Of a stretch of DNA of 64,000 nucleotides, positions 41,558 to 61,947 are shown piece by piece. Each line of letters starts with the position of its first letter. The first letter of the stretch is position 1. The stretch is from Methylotenera sp. (GTDB taxonomy: Bacteria > Pseudomonadota > Gammaproteobacteria > Burkholderiales > Methylophilaceae), in NCBI RefSeq assembly GCF_029945535.1, contig NZ_JAQSCU010000012.1:1-64000 (forward strand), read 5' to 3'. The position numbers and the translations under genes are program-made. The notes beneath the pieces were generated by a model. That model was not told where the DNA came from. It saw only the letters and a list, made by a program, of their open reading frames with translations, and did not search any database.

Positions 41558-41998
41558 ATGAGCTTATACAATCCCACTCGCGATCAAGCGCGTCAATTTT
41601 TATTTGATGCATGGTCTAAATTCAAGCAACACTTAAGCCTGACAGATTTAGAAAAAATCGCGGTAGAAGTCATACAAATGCATCCTGAATACCATGTGGT
41701 ATTTGATTCGCCAGAACATTTTATGCACCAACAATACTTTCCTGAAATGGGCGAAACCAATCCATTTTTGCATATCACCCTGCATTTATCTGTGATAGAA
41801 CAAATTAGCATCAACCAGCCTATAGGCATCACACAGATTTATGATAAATTACGTCAGCAACATAGCGATACTCACCTTGCGTATCATGATTTGATTGATT
41901 GCCTTGCTGAAACTATCTGGCAAGCGCAGCGTAATAACCAAGCTTTAGATTCTGAACATTATCTGAACTTGCTAAAACAAAAGTCAGGATTAGTTTAA
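41558..41998 (+). CDS. DUF1841 family protein
   Basis: A 146-residue soluble, helical protein starting MSLYNPTRDQARQFLFDAW, with HPEYHVVFDSPEHF and ETNPFLHITLHLSVIEQI; these are the hallmarks of DUF1841, a betaproteobacterial family of unknown function. The pattern of His residues could bind a metal. Its stop and the sigma factor start share a base (TAATG), so it is translationally coupled to the sigma factor and may belong to the same regulon. Confidence 0.85.
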   Translation: MSLYNPTRDQARQFLFDAWSKFKQHLSLTDLEKIAVEVIQMHPEYHVVFDSPEHFMHQQYFPEMGETNPFLHITLHLSVIEQISINQPIGITQIYDKLRQQHSDTHLAYHDLIDCLAETIWQAQRNNQALDSEHYLNLLKQKSGLV

Positions 41999-42555
41999 TG
42001 AATAAAAATGTCAATGACTGGCTAAACGATCACGGCGATTATCTATATCGTTTTGCCTTAGCAAGGTTACGTGACCCTCATCAAGCTGAGGACGCTGTAC
42101 AGGAAACCATGCTAGCCGCGATTAAAAGTGATAGCTTTGAAGGTGACTCTTCTGCCAGAACTTGGTTGACCGGCATACTCAAACATAAAATAATCGACTT
42201 GCAACGCAAACAAATTCGCGAACAACCACTTTCCGATTTAATCGATCTAGATGCATCCGACACCAGTATGGATGATTTTTTTGACAAGAGCGGCCATTGG
42301 CTGGATAAACCACAAACGCTAGACATGCCGGAAAATGCACTTGAGCAAAAACAGTTTCTCAGTATTCTAAGTGGATGTATGGACAAGCTGCCAGCTAAAC
42401 TAGCCGCCATTTTTATGTTGCGCGATGTACACGAAGTAGATAATGAAAATATTTGTAAGGAACTTGATATTACCGCGACCAATGCTTGGGTGATGTTGTA
42501 TAGAGCTCGAATGGGGTTAAGAAAATGTCTGGAAATAAATTGGATCGCTGGTTAG
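41998..42555 (+). CDS. ECF-type RNA polymerase sigma factor
   Basis: A 185-residue sigma-70 family protein with region 2 (YRFALARLRDPHQAEDAVQE, then FEGDSSARTWLTGILKHKII) and region 4 (LPAKLAAIFMLRDVHEVDNE, TATNAWVMLYRARMGLRKCL). There is no region 1 or 3, as in ECF factors. It is followed 18 bases later by a zinc-finger anti-sigma factor and then the metallophore genes. It most likely directs their transcription, in response to metal or oxidative stress; the signal is not shown by the sequence. Confidence 0.9.
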   Translation: MNKNVNDWLNDHGDYLYRFALARLRDPHQAEDAVQETMLAAIKSDSFEGDSSARTWLTGILKHKIIDLQRKQIREQPLSDLIDLDASDTSMDDFFDKSGHWLDKPQTLDMPENALEQKQFLSILSGCMDKLPAKLAAIFMLRDVHEVDNENICKELDITATNAWVMLYRARMGLRKCLEINWIAG

Positions 42556-42573
42556 TAATATGGATACCATAAA

Positions 42574-42834
42574 ATGAAATTAATGCTTACCTGTAAACAA
42601 GCCAGTCAGATTATTTCGCAGTCATTAGACAATCCTTTGTCATGGTCAGACCGCATAAAATTAAAGTTTCATCTATTTATTTGTAATGCTTGTACGCGCT
42701 TTAATCAGCAATTACGTTTAATTAAAAGTGCAGTGCAACGCATGAAACTTGAAACTGAAAATGACGACACTATACAACTTACTGTAGATGCGAAAGCCAG
42801 AATTAATCAGGCAATTGACTCTAATCATCACTAA
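42574..42834 (+). CDS. Zinc-finger (zf-HC2) anti-sigma factor
   Basis: An 86-residue cytosolic protein with the anti-sigma zinc motif: Cys in MLTCKQASQIIS and HLFICNAC further on (H-x3-C-x2-C). It has no membrane helix, so it is a soluble ZAS/ChrR-type factor that can lose zinc or form disulfides to free the sigma factor. A copper or redox signal would be plausible given the downstream genes. It lies between the sigma gene and hvfA. Confidence 0.85.
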   Translation: MKLMLTCKQASQIISQSLDNPLSWSDRIKLKFHLFICNACTRFNQQLRLIKSAVQRMKLETENDDTIQLTVDAKARINQAIDSNHH

Positions 42835-42879
42835 ACGCATATTTTAAGTTTTATCATTTAATTTTTTAAAGGATTTGTC

Positions 42880-43260
42880 ATGAATAATACACAAAAAACT
42901 ATCGCTCTTGCTCTTAGCGGCGCATTCGCTTTATCAATCGCAACTACCTCAATGGCTGCAGCGCAGAACCCATTTGCTGCAAGATCATTATCATCAGGTT
43001 ATCAAGTAGCTGATGCCGATACCAAAATGAAAGACGGTAAATGCAGCACTGGTAAATGTGGCGCAAATAAAAAATCAGCGATGAAAAAAGCTGAAGCTGA
43101 AAAAGCTAAAGAAGGCTCATGCAGTGCGGAAAAGATGAAAGATGGTTCTTGTAGTGCTGAAATGAAAGCTTCTGCAGAAAAAGCAAAAGAGGGTTCATGT
43201 AGTGCCGAAAAAATGAAAGACGGTAATTGCAGCGCTGAGATGAAAAATAAAGCTAAATAA
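42880..43260 (+). CDS. hvfA: HvfA/bufferin-type RiPP metallophore precursor
   Basis: A 126-residue secreted precursor. A Sec signal peptide (1-27, ending SMAA) is followed by a leader-like NPFAARSLSSGYQVADADTK and a Cys-rich core. The GYQ-V/L-A segment before the Cys region is typical of HvfA/BufA2. Six Cys (55, 60, 81, 91, 107, 117) sit in KDGKCS, TGKCG and four (E/D)G(S/N)CS contexts; residues 74-96 and 100-122 are a tandem duplication (22 of 23 identical). In studied relatives, MNIO enzymes convert such Cys to oxazolone/thioamide or thiooxazole groups that bind copper. An AAAGGA precedes the ATG. Confidence 0.85.
   Translation: MNNTQKTIALALSGAFALSIATTSMAAAQNPFAARSLSSGYQVADADTKMKDGKCSTGKCGANKKSAMKKAEAEKAKEGSCSAEKMKDGSCSAEMKASAEKAKEGSCSAEKMKDGNCSAEMKNKAK
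43099..43245 (+). repeat. Two 23-codon repeats in the metallophore core
   Basis: Units at 43099-43167 and 43177-43245 are separated by three codons. The proteins differ at one residue (Ser to Asn), but ten of the other codons differ synonymously. The duplication is old and the peptide is conserved by selection. Confidence 0.85.
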
Positions 43261-43311
43261 TATTAATACGTTACCTGATGAAGCATCACTGTTTTAGCAG
43301 TTAATATAGTT

Positions 43312-44211
43312 ATGTTTAATCAGACCGACAGCAAAATTAACGGTGTGGGTTTGGGGCTAAAGCGTGAGCTTATCCCTCAAATCCAAGCCGCCTTTGGTAA
43401 TAGCACTATTGCCAATCTGAATTTCGTTGAAATCGCCCCAGAAAACTGGATAGAGATTGGCGGCAAAGCGGCAAAACAGCTGGATTGGTTTGCTGAACGC
43501 TATCCTATTGCTTGCCATGGTTTATGCCTTTCACTTGGTGGCCTAGCCCCACTTGATACAATCTTCTTAAACCAAGTGAAGCAATTTCTACAGCAATATC
43601 AAATTCCACTTTATACCGAACACTTAAGCTACTCAACCGATGGCTACAAAGGTCAACAAGGCTATCTGTATGACTTGTTGCCCGTCCCCTTCACTGAAGA
43701 AGCGGTGCATTACGTCGCTAAACGCATACGCCAAACTCAGGACATTCTTGGACAACGCATTGGAATAGAAAATGCTTCTTTTTATGTGCAAGCGCCAATC
43801 TCGACGATGGATGAGTTAACCTTCATCAAAGCTGTATTGACTGAGGCTGATTGCTTATTACACTTAGACATCAACAATATTTACGTGAATAGCGTTAATT
43901 TTGGCCATGATCTGAGCGATGGACTAAAAGCTGATCCAATCAAAATTGCGCAAGAGTTTTTACGAGCTATCCCAGGTGAACGTATCGCTTATGCGCACAT
44001 GGCGGGGCATTATCAGCAAGCACCAGATTTACTGATTGATACCCATGGCGCAGATGTAATAGACCCCGTATGGGCGCTACTTGAAGAAGCTTACCGACTA
44101 TTTGGCGCATTCCCAACCTGCTTAGAGCGTGACAATAATATTCCGCCCTTGCACGTATTGATGCGTGAAGTTAATAAAATTGCTGATTTTCAGAAGCATG
44201 CTAAATCATAA
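43312..44211 (+). CDS. hvfB: MNIO-type RiPP maturase (HvfB/BufB, DUF692)
   Basis: A 299-residue TIM-barrel multinuclear non-heme iron-dependent oxidase. Conserved segments are NFVEIAPENWIEIGG, YTEHLSYSTDG, IGIENASFYVQAP, LHLDINNIYVNSVNFG, AYAHMAGHYQQAPD, DTHGADVIDPVW and LERDNNIPPL, which carry the His, Asp, Asn and Glu iron ligands. The enzyme modifies core Cys of the precursor next door. It lies 51 bases after hvfA and six bases before hvfC. Confidence 0.93.
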   Translation: MFNQTDSKINGVGLGLKRELIPQIQAAFGNSTIANLNFVEIAPENWIEIGGKAAKQLDWFAERYPIACHGLCLSLGGLAPLDTIFLNQVKQFLQQYQIPLYTEHLSYSTDGYKGQQGYLYDLLPVPFTEEAVHYVAKRIRQTQDILGQRIGIENASFYVQAPISTMDELTFIKAVLTEADCLLHLDINNIYVNSVNFGHDLSDGLKADPIKIAQEFLRAIPGERIAYAHMAGHYQQAPDLLIDTHGADVIDPVWALLEEAYRLFGAFPTCLERDNNIPPLHVLMREVNKIADFQKHAKS

Positions 44212-44217
44212 CTAAAT

Positions 44218-44976
44218 ATGACTAAAGATCTGCCTAATTTTCAGCAGTATCAGCAAGCGTTCACTGCGCATATCCGCGATCCGCACAATCAATCTAGACC
44301 TAAAAATGTAAAAGCCAAGGGTATGGATGTGTACAAAGAGATTGTATTCAACAATCTCTTTGAATCAGTATCTGCTTGCTTTCCAGTAGCACAAAAGGTT
44401 ATCGGCAAGCGGGCGTGGCTCAAATTAGTCCGTGATTTCTTTCGTGAACACTCTTCATCGACGCCTATTTTTAGAAAGATTCCTGAAGAGTTTCTTGTCC
44501 ATTTATCTAATATTAATGCACTTACTCCAGAAAATATTCCACCTTATCTAACAAGCCTTTGTCATTACGAATGGGTTGAGTTGCTAGTTTCAACCATGGC
44601 AGATGAGGCTAATAAGCGTGATATTAATCTAACTGGTGAGCTGCGTTTGAATCAGCCTGCATTTACGCATACGATGCAGTTACTTAATTACGAATATGCA
44701 GTGCAAAAAATATCACCTCGTTACAAACCGAAAGAGAAAGTGAATACACAACTTTTAGTTTATAGAAATGCGGAGTTTGAAGTGAAGTTTATAGAACTCA
44801 ACACCGTTACATATCGGTTAATTGAAATTCTAAAACAAGATAGACTGAACTGTGAGCAAGCACTTACTGTGCTTGCAAAAGAGATAAACCAAACCCAAAC
44901 TGAAAGTATCATTCAGTTTGGGTTAGCTATATTGGAAGACTTGAGAAGCCAAGGCGTGATTCTTGGCGTGTACTGA
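44218..44976 (+). CDS. hvfC: RiPP maturation partner protein (HvfC/BufC, DUF2063)
   Basis: A 252-residue soluble protein. The N-terminal DUF2063 domain has FQQYQQAFTAHIRDP, MDVYKEIVFNNLFESVSACF and FFREHSSSTPIFRKIPEEFL; the C-part is a winged-helix-like domain (LLVYRNAEFEVKFIEL, TYRLIEILKQDRL). In known systems this partner binds the precursor and presents it to the MNIO enzyme. Two perfect hairpins lie in the last 130 bases of the coding sequence. There is no DoxX-like membrane gene after it, which many similar clusters have. Confidence 0.9.
   Translation: MTKDLPNFQQYQQAFTAHIRDPHNQSRPKNVKAKGMDVYKEIVFNNLFESVSACFPVAQKVIGKRAWLKLVRDFFREHSSSTPIFRKIPEEFLVHLSNINALTPENIPPYLTSLCHYEWVELLVSTMADEANKRDINLTGELRLNQPAFTHTMQLLNYEYAVQKISPRYKPKEKVNTQLLVYRNAEFEVKFIELNTVTYRLIEILKQDRLNCEQALTVLAKEINQTQTESIIQFGLAILEDLRSQGVILGVY
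44856..44924. repeat. Two successive hairpins at the 3' end of hvfC
   Basis: GCAAGCAC-TTACT-GTGCTTGC (44856-44876) and AACCCAAACTGAA-AGTATCA-TTCAGTTTGGGTT (44892-44924) are perfect stems of 8 and 13 bases inside the reading frame. Neither is followed by a T-run. They may slow 3' decay of the cassette mRNA. Confidence 0.6.
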
Positions 44977-61470: not shown

Positions 61471-61947
61471 CTACAAAAGCTTAGCGGCCCATTCTTGGGC
61501 AGTTATCTCTTTGTCGCCTGAAGTATCTTTATGTGCAAAAATGGTCTGATGGTAAGCTAAAAACTCCGCTCTTGTGACCTTATGGTCGCTATCAGCATCC
61601 ATCATTCCCATCATTTTCATTGAGCGAAGCTCACGACTATAACCACCTGTTGCAAGATCAAGCTTAGAATGTTTAGCTGGTCCAGCCCATTCTTTTGCAT
61701 CAACTGAACCATCTTTGTCTTTATCAAGCTCTTCGAAAATACTATTGTAATAAGTATCCGCTTCGGCAGCTGTCACCATGTGATTGCCATCAGCATCTAA
61801 CATTTTCATCATGCCCATTTTGCTAAACTCACGTGCATAACCACCCGTACTTAACATTGCATCTGCCGCAAAAGCTGGTGCCGATAGAACGCCTGCTGAA
61901 AGTAAGGTTGCTACCACTAATACTACGTTTTTAATTTGAATGTTCAT
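61471..61947 (-). CDS. Secreted EF-hand protein, internally duplicated
   Basis: A 158-residue exported protein with a signal peptide (1-28, ending APAFA). It has four EF-hand loops, at residues 51-62, 75-86, 117-128 and 141-152, each with Asp at position 1 and Glu at 12. The two halves are alike: each starts L-x-TGGY-x-RE and runs M-x-MM-x-M-x-DAD. It therefore comes from a duplication of a two-hand unit. It binds calcium or similar ions in the periplasm by inference; no partner is evident. Confidence 0.85.
   Translation of the reverse strand: MNIQIKNVVLVVATLLSAGVLSAPAFAADAMLSTGGYAREFSKMGMMKMLDADGNHMVTAAEADTYYNSIFEELDKDKDGSVDAKEWAGPAKHSKLDLATGGYSRELRSMKMMGMMDADSDHKVTRAEFLAYHQTIFAHKDTSGDKEITAQEWAAKLL

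Follow-up and report, generated by a model that had tools for sequence, protein, structure and literature searches.

A sigma gene carrying a candidate copy of its target promoter beside an HvfA-like thiooxazole-peptide cassette of Methylotenera sp.

Sigma/anti-sigma pairs beside hvf genes, the control of methionine sulfoxide reductases (Msr) by such pairs, and thiooxazole chemistry are already known. In Neisseria meningitidis, the sigmaE operon NMB2140-2145 (rpoE, mseR), like gonococcal ngoABC, unites an extracytoplasmic function (ECF) sigma factor, an anti-sigma factor of the zinc-binding anti-sigma (ZAS) type, a DoxX protein and further genes (PMC2893595, PMC13097082), the latter assigned by other papers to biosynthesis by a multinuclear non-heme iron-dependent oxidase (MNIO) and a DUF2063 protein. 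A positive loop is usual for ECF sigma factors (PMC8103513). Here we analysed a stretch of 64,000 bases from Methylotenera sp. (Methylophilaceae; GCF_029945535.1, contig NZ_JAQSCU010000012.1, positions 1 to 64,000, forward strand), hereafter the window, in which genes of an ECF sigma factor, an anti-sigma factor, a precursor peptide, an HvfB family maturase and an HvfC family partner follow each other. From their sequences we consider it likely that these five genes constitute a stress-induced thiooxazole-peptide (captophorin, HvfA-like) unit with an embedded, self-limiting sigma switch. New here are the promoter word and its place inside the sigma gene, the position of HvfX behind msrPQ, and precursor tails of the Cys-Ser type accompanied by an altered maturase.

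Computation established the identities of the genes as well as the word, where it occurs and how well it is conserved. In the window the word, TGTAAGG-N15-CGACCAA, coincides with codons 153-162 (CKELDITATN) in region 4 of the sigma factor, and it ends 70 bases before the end of the last sense codon and 91 before the start of the anti-sigma gene (a start at 42583, giving MLTCK as in many relatives, is equally likely). In 43 non-redundant sigma genes, which share less than 90% identity, with CGTCTAA also accepted as the -10 element, we found the embedded word with at most one mismatch in 40. It is present in 27 of the 28 sigma genes of the window's clade (24 exact), the miss being a truncated gene (L089), and in 13 of the 15 from other families of the order. 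At the two loci outside the clade that lack it (L132, L143), the sigma gene is inverted, and the anti-sigma gene, with the precursor gene behind it, is preceded at about 40 bases by an exact word. Among 162 sigma columns, wobble conservation is highest in codons 154, 153 and 160. Judged by codon usage elsewhere in the same sigma genes, TGT is used in 41/42 (17.1 expected) and AAG in 36/42 (11.6 expected); residue 160 is mostly Ala, Ser, Pro or Thr, yet its codon is NCG in 40/42 (10.1 expected). In the spacer, codons 156-159 are variable at the third base. Up to 250 bases upstream of the sigma gene itself there is no copy (best word with 4-6 mismatches, 43/43), and at loci without a local sigma match the best word has 2-4 mismatches (8/8; L039 is a cut contig). 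L065, a sigma paralogue of the window genome beside which no anti-sigma gene was seen, is likewise without the word.

GTAAGG-N15-CGAC(T/C)AA, obtained by footprinting, is most likely the word read by this sigma factor, with transcription presumably starting a few bases downstream of the embedded -10 element. Its position inside the sigma gene, upstream of the anti-sigma and hvfABC genes, implies that the anti-sigma and the product would be induced and the sigma factor would not; by motif, no positive autoregulation of the sigma gene was found. Nearly as probable as the unit itself, in our judgement, is that the region-4 DNA of this sigma gene doubles as a copy of the promoter which the sigma factor reads. 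It would represent an old, selected case of double coding across several betaproteobacterial families, driving the anti-sigma and thiooxazole-peptide genes with the sigma outside the loop and joining two metallophore cassettes, HvfX and MsrPQ in one self-limiting redox/metal regulon. In literature searches assessed by title, opening of the abstract and term counts, nothing turned up that reports an ECF sigma gene harbouring a promoter ahead of the anti-sigma gene. Internal promoters exist in the Escherichia coli rpoE and Pseudomonas algU operons, for which reason our claim of novelty is a limited one.

A classical ECF promoter (GGAAC..GTC) was also considered as the sigma target and rejected, no such site lying upstream of the cassette at sigma-bearing loci. 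Two genomes without a precursor match (G051 and G107, loci L054 and L055) encode a related sigma/anti-sigma pair with TGTAAGG-N15-CGTCTAA inside the sigma gene, located between glutaredoxin-like and OvoA-like (ovothiol-type) genes, as judged by eye. Close before the sigma start, a TGnTTnAAT word occurs in 9 of 26 upstream regions (the best word of one shuffle occurred in 5) and is perhaps the housekeeping promoter of the sigma gene.

Together, the five genes make up a divergent thiooxazole-peptide cassette of the HvfABC type, belonging to Methylophilaceae. They are separated by 18, 45, 51 and 6 bases (Table 1), and four of them pass the cut-off of a family model: the sigma factor with 204.9 bits (TIGR02943, 162.2), the anti-sigma with 70.9 (NCBIfam NF052368, 50), the maturase with 376.4 (HvfB, NF003818, 360) and the DUF2063 partner with 246.4 (HvfC, NF050145, 142). 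The earlier, sequence-only reading, made without database searches, had proposed an hvfABC-type cassette of a ribosomally synthesized and post-translationally modified peptide beside a sigma/anti-sigma pair, in a likely methylotroph. The coordinates together with the Pfam and NCBIfam matches uphold the former, the Pfam profiles placing enzyme and partner where it had expected them, and the nearest named relatives of the window belong to the methylotroph Methylotenera, in agreement with the latter. All five genes were found at 38 of 52 loci (L001-L052), a set that includes two copies of the window itself and some near-copies; the association is far beyond chance.

Table 1. Features of the locus (positions within the window)
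Feature	Position	Strand	Evidence or remark
DUF1841 gene	41558..41998	+	Pfam PF08897 4.6e-54; neighbour, outside cassette
ECF sigma factor, 185 aa, TIGR02943 family	41998..42555	+	Pfam Sigma70_r2 5.7e-15, r4_2 1.4e-9
Candidate promoter word embedded in sigma gene	42455..42482	+	-35 GTAAGG 42455-42460, 15-base spacer, -10 CGACCAA 42476-42482
Anti-sigma factor, small, ZAS-type, 86 aa	42574..42834	+	zf-HC2 1.4e-6; NF052368 above cut-off
HvfA-like precursor, 126 aa, six Cys	42880..43260	+	NF050188 26.4 bits, cut-off 95
Core doublet DGKCSTGKCG (Cys 55 and Cys 60) of precursor	43033..43062	+	
Precursor tail, four (E/D)G(S/N)CSAE repeats	43111..43242	+	
HvfB family MNIO maturase, 299 aa	43312..44211	+	NF003818; structure match 3bww 3.5e-66; MbnB_TglH_ChrH 1e-94
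Codon of MNIO residue 275 (Asn), directly 3' of Asp of ERD	44134..44136	+	
HvfC family partner (DUF2063), 252 aa	44218..44976	+	DUF2063 3.7e-25, NGO1945_C 5e-24; 3dee 1.3e-10

The word was found independently as one common to the regions upstream of msrP. A regular expression permitting spacers of 12-18 bases matched 25 of 30 loci, always with a spacer of 15, and a 26th (L221) was added after correction of the start. Upstream regions from precursor-bearing genomes contain the word at 25/25 loci, whereas among the five from precursor-less genomes it is exact in G023, where a sigma gene beside DUF1841 runs to the contig end, has two mismatches in G020 and is missing in G049, G053 and G051. In G051, which has msrPQ and neither HvfX nor a precursor match, a one-mismatch word lies about 48 bases behind msrQ (L204, 3170), perhaps as a relic of an hvfX promoter.

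The absence of a DoxX-like gene, recorded by the sequence-only reading, holds for the locus and fails for the genome, which encodes three DoxX proteins. One of them is HvfX (119.9 bits, cut-off 80), encoded on contig C10 behind msrP-msrQ. Among 30 HvfX loci from 30 genomes of the family (the window's included; HvfX of G009 and the second copy in G014 stand outside this set), 24 are located behind msrPQ, six behind HvfC and none elsewhere. Strong HvfX matches (E < 1e-50) occur in 31/36 precursor-bearing versus 0/24 other genomes of the family (Fisher p 3e-12, a value that ignores kinship). Weaker matches were left uncounted in G036, which has the precursor, and in G030, G043, G053 and G023, which have none, that of G023 being a 51-residue piece with 73% identity. 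In turn, strong msrP (E < 1e-100) is present in 49/60 genomes, including 16/24 without a precursor match; thus, it is HvfX, not MsrPQ, that tracks the cassette. Molybdopterin oxidoreductase and ferric reductase genes have been reported in small numbers of EGKCG clusters (PMC12452194) and fit MsrPQ. No report of HvfX behind msrPQ was found in the literature search, assessed in the same way.

A second MNIO cassette of the window genome (contig C6; L001 853-3101) is preceded by an exact word 154 bases before its BufA2-type precursor. This precursor scores 107.8 bits (cut-off 60) and has a lipobox-like LAGC; the maturase is above the BufB cut-off, and the DUF2063 protein is recognized by Pfam (1.8e-18) and stays below the cut-off of the HvfC model (34.9 bits). 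The window maturase, in contrast, reaches 246.9 bits of the 310 required by the BufB model, and its precursor has no match to BufA models up to E 1. As a bufferin cassette in the strict sense this genome has that on C6, not that of the window, for which the term 'bufferin-type', used earlier, is incorrect or too broad. Going beyond the sequence-only reading, the shared word would link the sigma factor to its adjacent cassette, msrPQ, hvfX and the second cassette. In L097, from the only one of 299 phylum genomes to score above the HvfA cut-off, a DoxX-HvfA-HvfB-HvfC row has a word with one mismatch (892-919) about 90 bases before it, which suggests that the same promoter word may serve a Haemophilus-like hvf operon.

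The anti-sigma protein possesses the motif C7-x25-H33-x3-C37-x2-C40, in line with the ZAS definition of C/H-x23-26-H-x3-C-x2-C in a small protein (PMC7907618). C7 is kept in 58/60 and H33, C37 and C40 in 60/60 aligned proteins, among which are near-copies and two paralogues. Given this zinc/thiol motif, thiol or oxidative stress is no less likely than copper to be the signal, and the sigma switch is probably redox-controlled. Promoter activity, signal, chemistry and metal, as given in the following circuit, are what we infer. A zinc-holding cytoplasmic anti-sigma would keep the sigma factor silent, the latter being made at a low level from elsewhere; to judge from relatives, thiol oxidation, or displacement of zinc by copper, would free it. 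Free sigma would read GTAAGG-N15-CGAC(T/C)AA, the embedded copy yielding an anti-sigma-hvfA-hvfB-hvfC messenger and further copies serving msrP-msrQ, hvfX and the BufA2-type cassette elsewhere in the genome. Before Sec export, HvfB and HvfC would convert precursor Cys into 5-thiooxazoles by oxidation, at least the two of the DGKCxxGKCG doublet, and the peptide would bind a soft metal (copper) in the periplasm, with MsrPQ repairing oxidised methionine. With its promoter downstream of the sigma start, the response would raise the anti-sigma and the product, not the sigma, forming a self-limiting loop or pulse.

We lean only moderately away from a system that answers reactive chlorine or other oxidants, with metal binding secondary or absent. 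The presence of the word before msrP at all 25 loci examined from precursor-bearing genomes and the ZAS type of the anti-sigma speak for such a system, and Haemophilus RpoE2 and Neisseria sigmaE control msrAB (PMC7907618, PMC2893595); against it stands that, as a rule, 5-thiooxazole peptides bind copper and that copper or gold, besides oxidants, often induces the genes for them (PMC13097082).

The precursor comprises a signal peptide (judged by eye), an NPF..L..GYQVA block, the core doublet and a repeat tail; the leader block NPF....L..GY.VA and the Cys doublet are conserved in all 15 rows of the precursor alignment. Of words resembling the repeated EGKCG, its core has only DGKCS-TGKCG, and its tail is EGSCS-like. 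The doublet occurs in 40 of 42 distinct clade precursors, and Gly follows its second Cys in 38 of these 40. Their tail Cys are followed by Gly in 23 of 155 cases and otherwise by Ser (108), His (17), Asn (6) or Gln (1), while outside the clade (52 loci) Cys is followed by Gly in 302/313. Tails of clade precursors appear to have exchanged Cys-Gly for Cys-Ser; the passages of PMC13097082 and PMC12452194 considered here name no precursor words of the Cys-Ser kind. Precursors of L039 and L040 have lost all tail Cys and kept the doublet as DGKCATGQCGA, next to open maturase and partner genes.

FonBC activity was lost with every tested replacement of the Gly after Cys, Ala excepted, and a model places FonB Phe250, beside the catalytic Asp, against this Gly (PMC13097082). 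Residue 275 of the maturase is taken to correspond to Phe250, by a match derived from the text of that paper and 3bww, not from the FonB sequence. Cys-Gly systems have Phe or Tyr at this position, and clade maturases have Asn, Thr, Leu, Ile or Ser, the exception being Methylobacillus L048, with Phe and Cys-Gly only. Clade maturases thus seem to have lost the aromatic residue next to the catalytic Asp. Residue 275 and the residue after Cys are concordant in 90 of 95 rows, 53 of them aromatic and mainly Cys-Gly (L118 among them, without a scored Cys) and 37 non-aromatic with at least 34% non-Gly after Cys. The 95 rows were obtained from 109 by dropping window copies (L119, L127), duplicates (L126, L131, L159), truncated entries (L008, L023, L052, L137) and five identical maturases; loci without a precursor found, e.g., L158, never entered the comparison. 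When maturases were grouped by precursor trait, column 275 ranked 4th of 277 and was, with column 72, the only one over 0.6 that L135 also leaves. A ranking grouped on column 275 itself was discarded as circular, and the residue preceding Cys was dismissed as main correlate, several Phe enzymes having Ser there.

These patterns are suggestive of residue 275 acting as a gate matched to Cys-Ser substrates. Several observations temper this reading: five rows are discordant (L027, L031, L044, L152, L157), and the tree holds only two changes at this residue, one of them L135 in another family, for which reason the paired test cannot reach significance (p 0.5-1). A pattern search of 369 genomes of the class gave three matches besides the window's, and one of these, L163, is a counter-example, an HvfB relative with Asn and yet all Cys-Gly, the Lys before Cys being lost; L162 is no MNIO, and L164 is a distant MNIO (26% identical), unscored. 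In the genome of L135 and L159 (G554), two precursors, one with Cys-Gly only and the other with Cys-Ala and Cys-Ser, precede one maturase with Leu at the place of Phe250.

It is conceivable, and to us somewhat doubtful, that the tail Cys remain unmodified, metallothionein-like thiols and only the DGKCxxGKCG doublet becomes thiooxazoles. The FonBC replacements point that way, as do the Gly kept in the doublet and lost after 132 of the 155 tail Cys, and the precursors of L039 and L040, which lack tail Cys; however, the maturases lost the aromatic residue thought to pack there twice independently on the tree, as if adapted to Cys-Ser.

Returning to the unit with an embedded sigma switch, a number of points weigh against it. 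The precursor matches the HvfA model with 26.4 bits, below the cut-off, and is filed as HvfA-like rather than HvfA; this cut-off is very narrow, with one passing among the 29 of 299 phylum genomes that match at E <= 0.001. In the window genome, the words upstream of hvfX (GTAAGT) and msrP (AGACTAA) have one mismatch each. The msrP upstream regions cover 25 of 33 precursor-bearing genomes with strong msrP, none with hvfX behind HvfC. The word scan covered the fetched loci, 842,642 bases, not the whole genome; its 98 hits (80 distinct) versus five for the word read backward speak for the word, but forward hits at L068, L113 (twice) and L136 (2887) are at places without clear meaning. A word with at most one mismatch arises in 3 of 20 shuffles of the window; thus, the case for a promoter rests on conservation, for which relatives are not independent samples, the p values ignoring kinship. 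Moreover, the Neisseria sigma factor is in a positive loop (PMC3240639), and its conduct is not directly transferable to this locus. A rival view, that constraints on the protein or on translation (the helix of region 4, codon choice or RNA structure) explain the conserved bases of the sigma gene, with the cassette read through from an upstream promoter, is improbable. It is favoured by the conservation of the C-K-E-L..T-N residues themselves in these sigma factors, by the close spacing of the genes and by the overlap of DUF1841 and sigma in the window; against it, the wobble bases are fixed even where residue 160 varies, the same word with the same 15-base spacer recurs in non-coding DNA before msrP, hvfX and bufA2, the two sigma genes turned from their anti-sigma have lost it and show it before the anti-sigma instead, and paralogue L065 is without it.

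The precursor was found in 85 of 150 genomes of the family, and proteins of the database that match its protein family at E <= 0.001 number 1023 (120 listed). Precursor and maturase without a sigma match are encoded at eight clade loci (L018, L020, L023, L025, L026, L040, L047, L052) and at three Thiothrix loci (L049-L051), while the contig of L039 ends too near the cassette to judge. In five genomes with such sigma-less cassettes (G067, G076, G082, G094, G122), the sigma paralogues found elsewhere are all distant, with best E values of 9e-9 to 1e-5. One genus that lacks this sigma has a GGAAC-N-GTC word 78-79 bases before the precursor in L018, L023 and L026 (L052 repeats L023) and not in L020 of the same genus; as a guess, the former cassettes may have switched to general RpoE control. 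The DUF1841 gene, previously taken as a coupled member of the cassette, overlaps the sigma gene by one base (TAATG). We rejected its membership, since DUF1841 adjoins nth or FIST both with and without a cassette, as at the clean empty sites L085 and L092 (nth-FIST-DUF1841-DUF1289-secA); the overlap in the window is thus a neighbour effect. The term DUF1841 was not found in the literature searched. Elsewhere in the window, a near word with a spacer of 16 and one mismatch (62046-62018, minus strand) is positioned about 70 bases before a gene (61471-61947, minus strand) for a Met-rich, EF-hand-like secreted protein, as judged by eye; this word may be due to chance.

If correct, our reading assigns to copper-binding-type peptides, the signals of which are unsettled, a defined regulon with one promoter word, locates the 'missing' HvfX partner and ties such peptides to periplasmic methionine repair. 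A sigma gene with its own target promoter in frame, with the anti-sigma inside and the sigma outside the loop, would be an unusual circuit, and the replacement of the maturase aromatic residue by Asn, Thr and others beside the change from Cys-Gly to Cys-Ser makes MNIO substrate choice testable.

Several described systems resemble this locus in part. In Brucella, the ECF sigma system BcrS/AbcS with bcrXQP controls MsrPQ homologues under hypochlorite, but it has a DUF1109 anti-sigma, promoter words TGTAAC/GCGAAA and an autoregulated sigma operon (PMC8315932); neither DUF692 nor DUF2282 is mentioned in the text of that paper. Bufferins (BufA1, BufA2) have the MNIO/DUF2063 pair in common with the window cassette and are set apart from it by the BufB and BufA results above. 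Fontiphorin (FonABC) and other captophorins likewise combine an MNIO, a DUF2063 partner and a precursor with Cys repeats (PMC13097082), yet Arg15, Arg16 and Phe250 of FonB are Lys, Arg and Asn at the places of HvfB taken as matching. Haemophilus influenzae hvfABCX, under RpoE2/HrsE, is closer, as the HvfB, HvfC and HvfX models match here too, and shared traits are a small cytoplasmic anti-sigma related to ZAS proteins and control of msrAB and of the DoxX cluster by the sigma factor (PMC7907618, PMC13419390). However, Haemophilus HvfA has three AEGKCGEGKCG blocks instead of one doublet and a Cys-Ser tail, and rpoE2 is, by locus tags, apart from the hvf cluster, while here the genes are adjacent. 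The signal peptide in Haemophilus helps recognition (PMC13419390), which we place beside the view that HvfBC would act before export. Finally, the Neisseria sigmaE consensus GTMAGBWTT/CGTCTAAH resembles the word found here, and a methionine sulfoxide reductase likewise belongs to the sigmaE regulon (PMC2893595). In Neisseria, though, the promoter precedes NMB2140 and DoxX is encoded within the sigmaE operon, whereas the present genome has the word within the sigma gene, and its hvfX is joined to msrPQ, apart from hvfABC.

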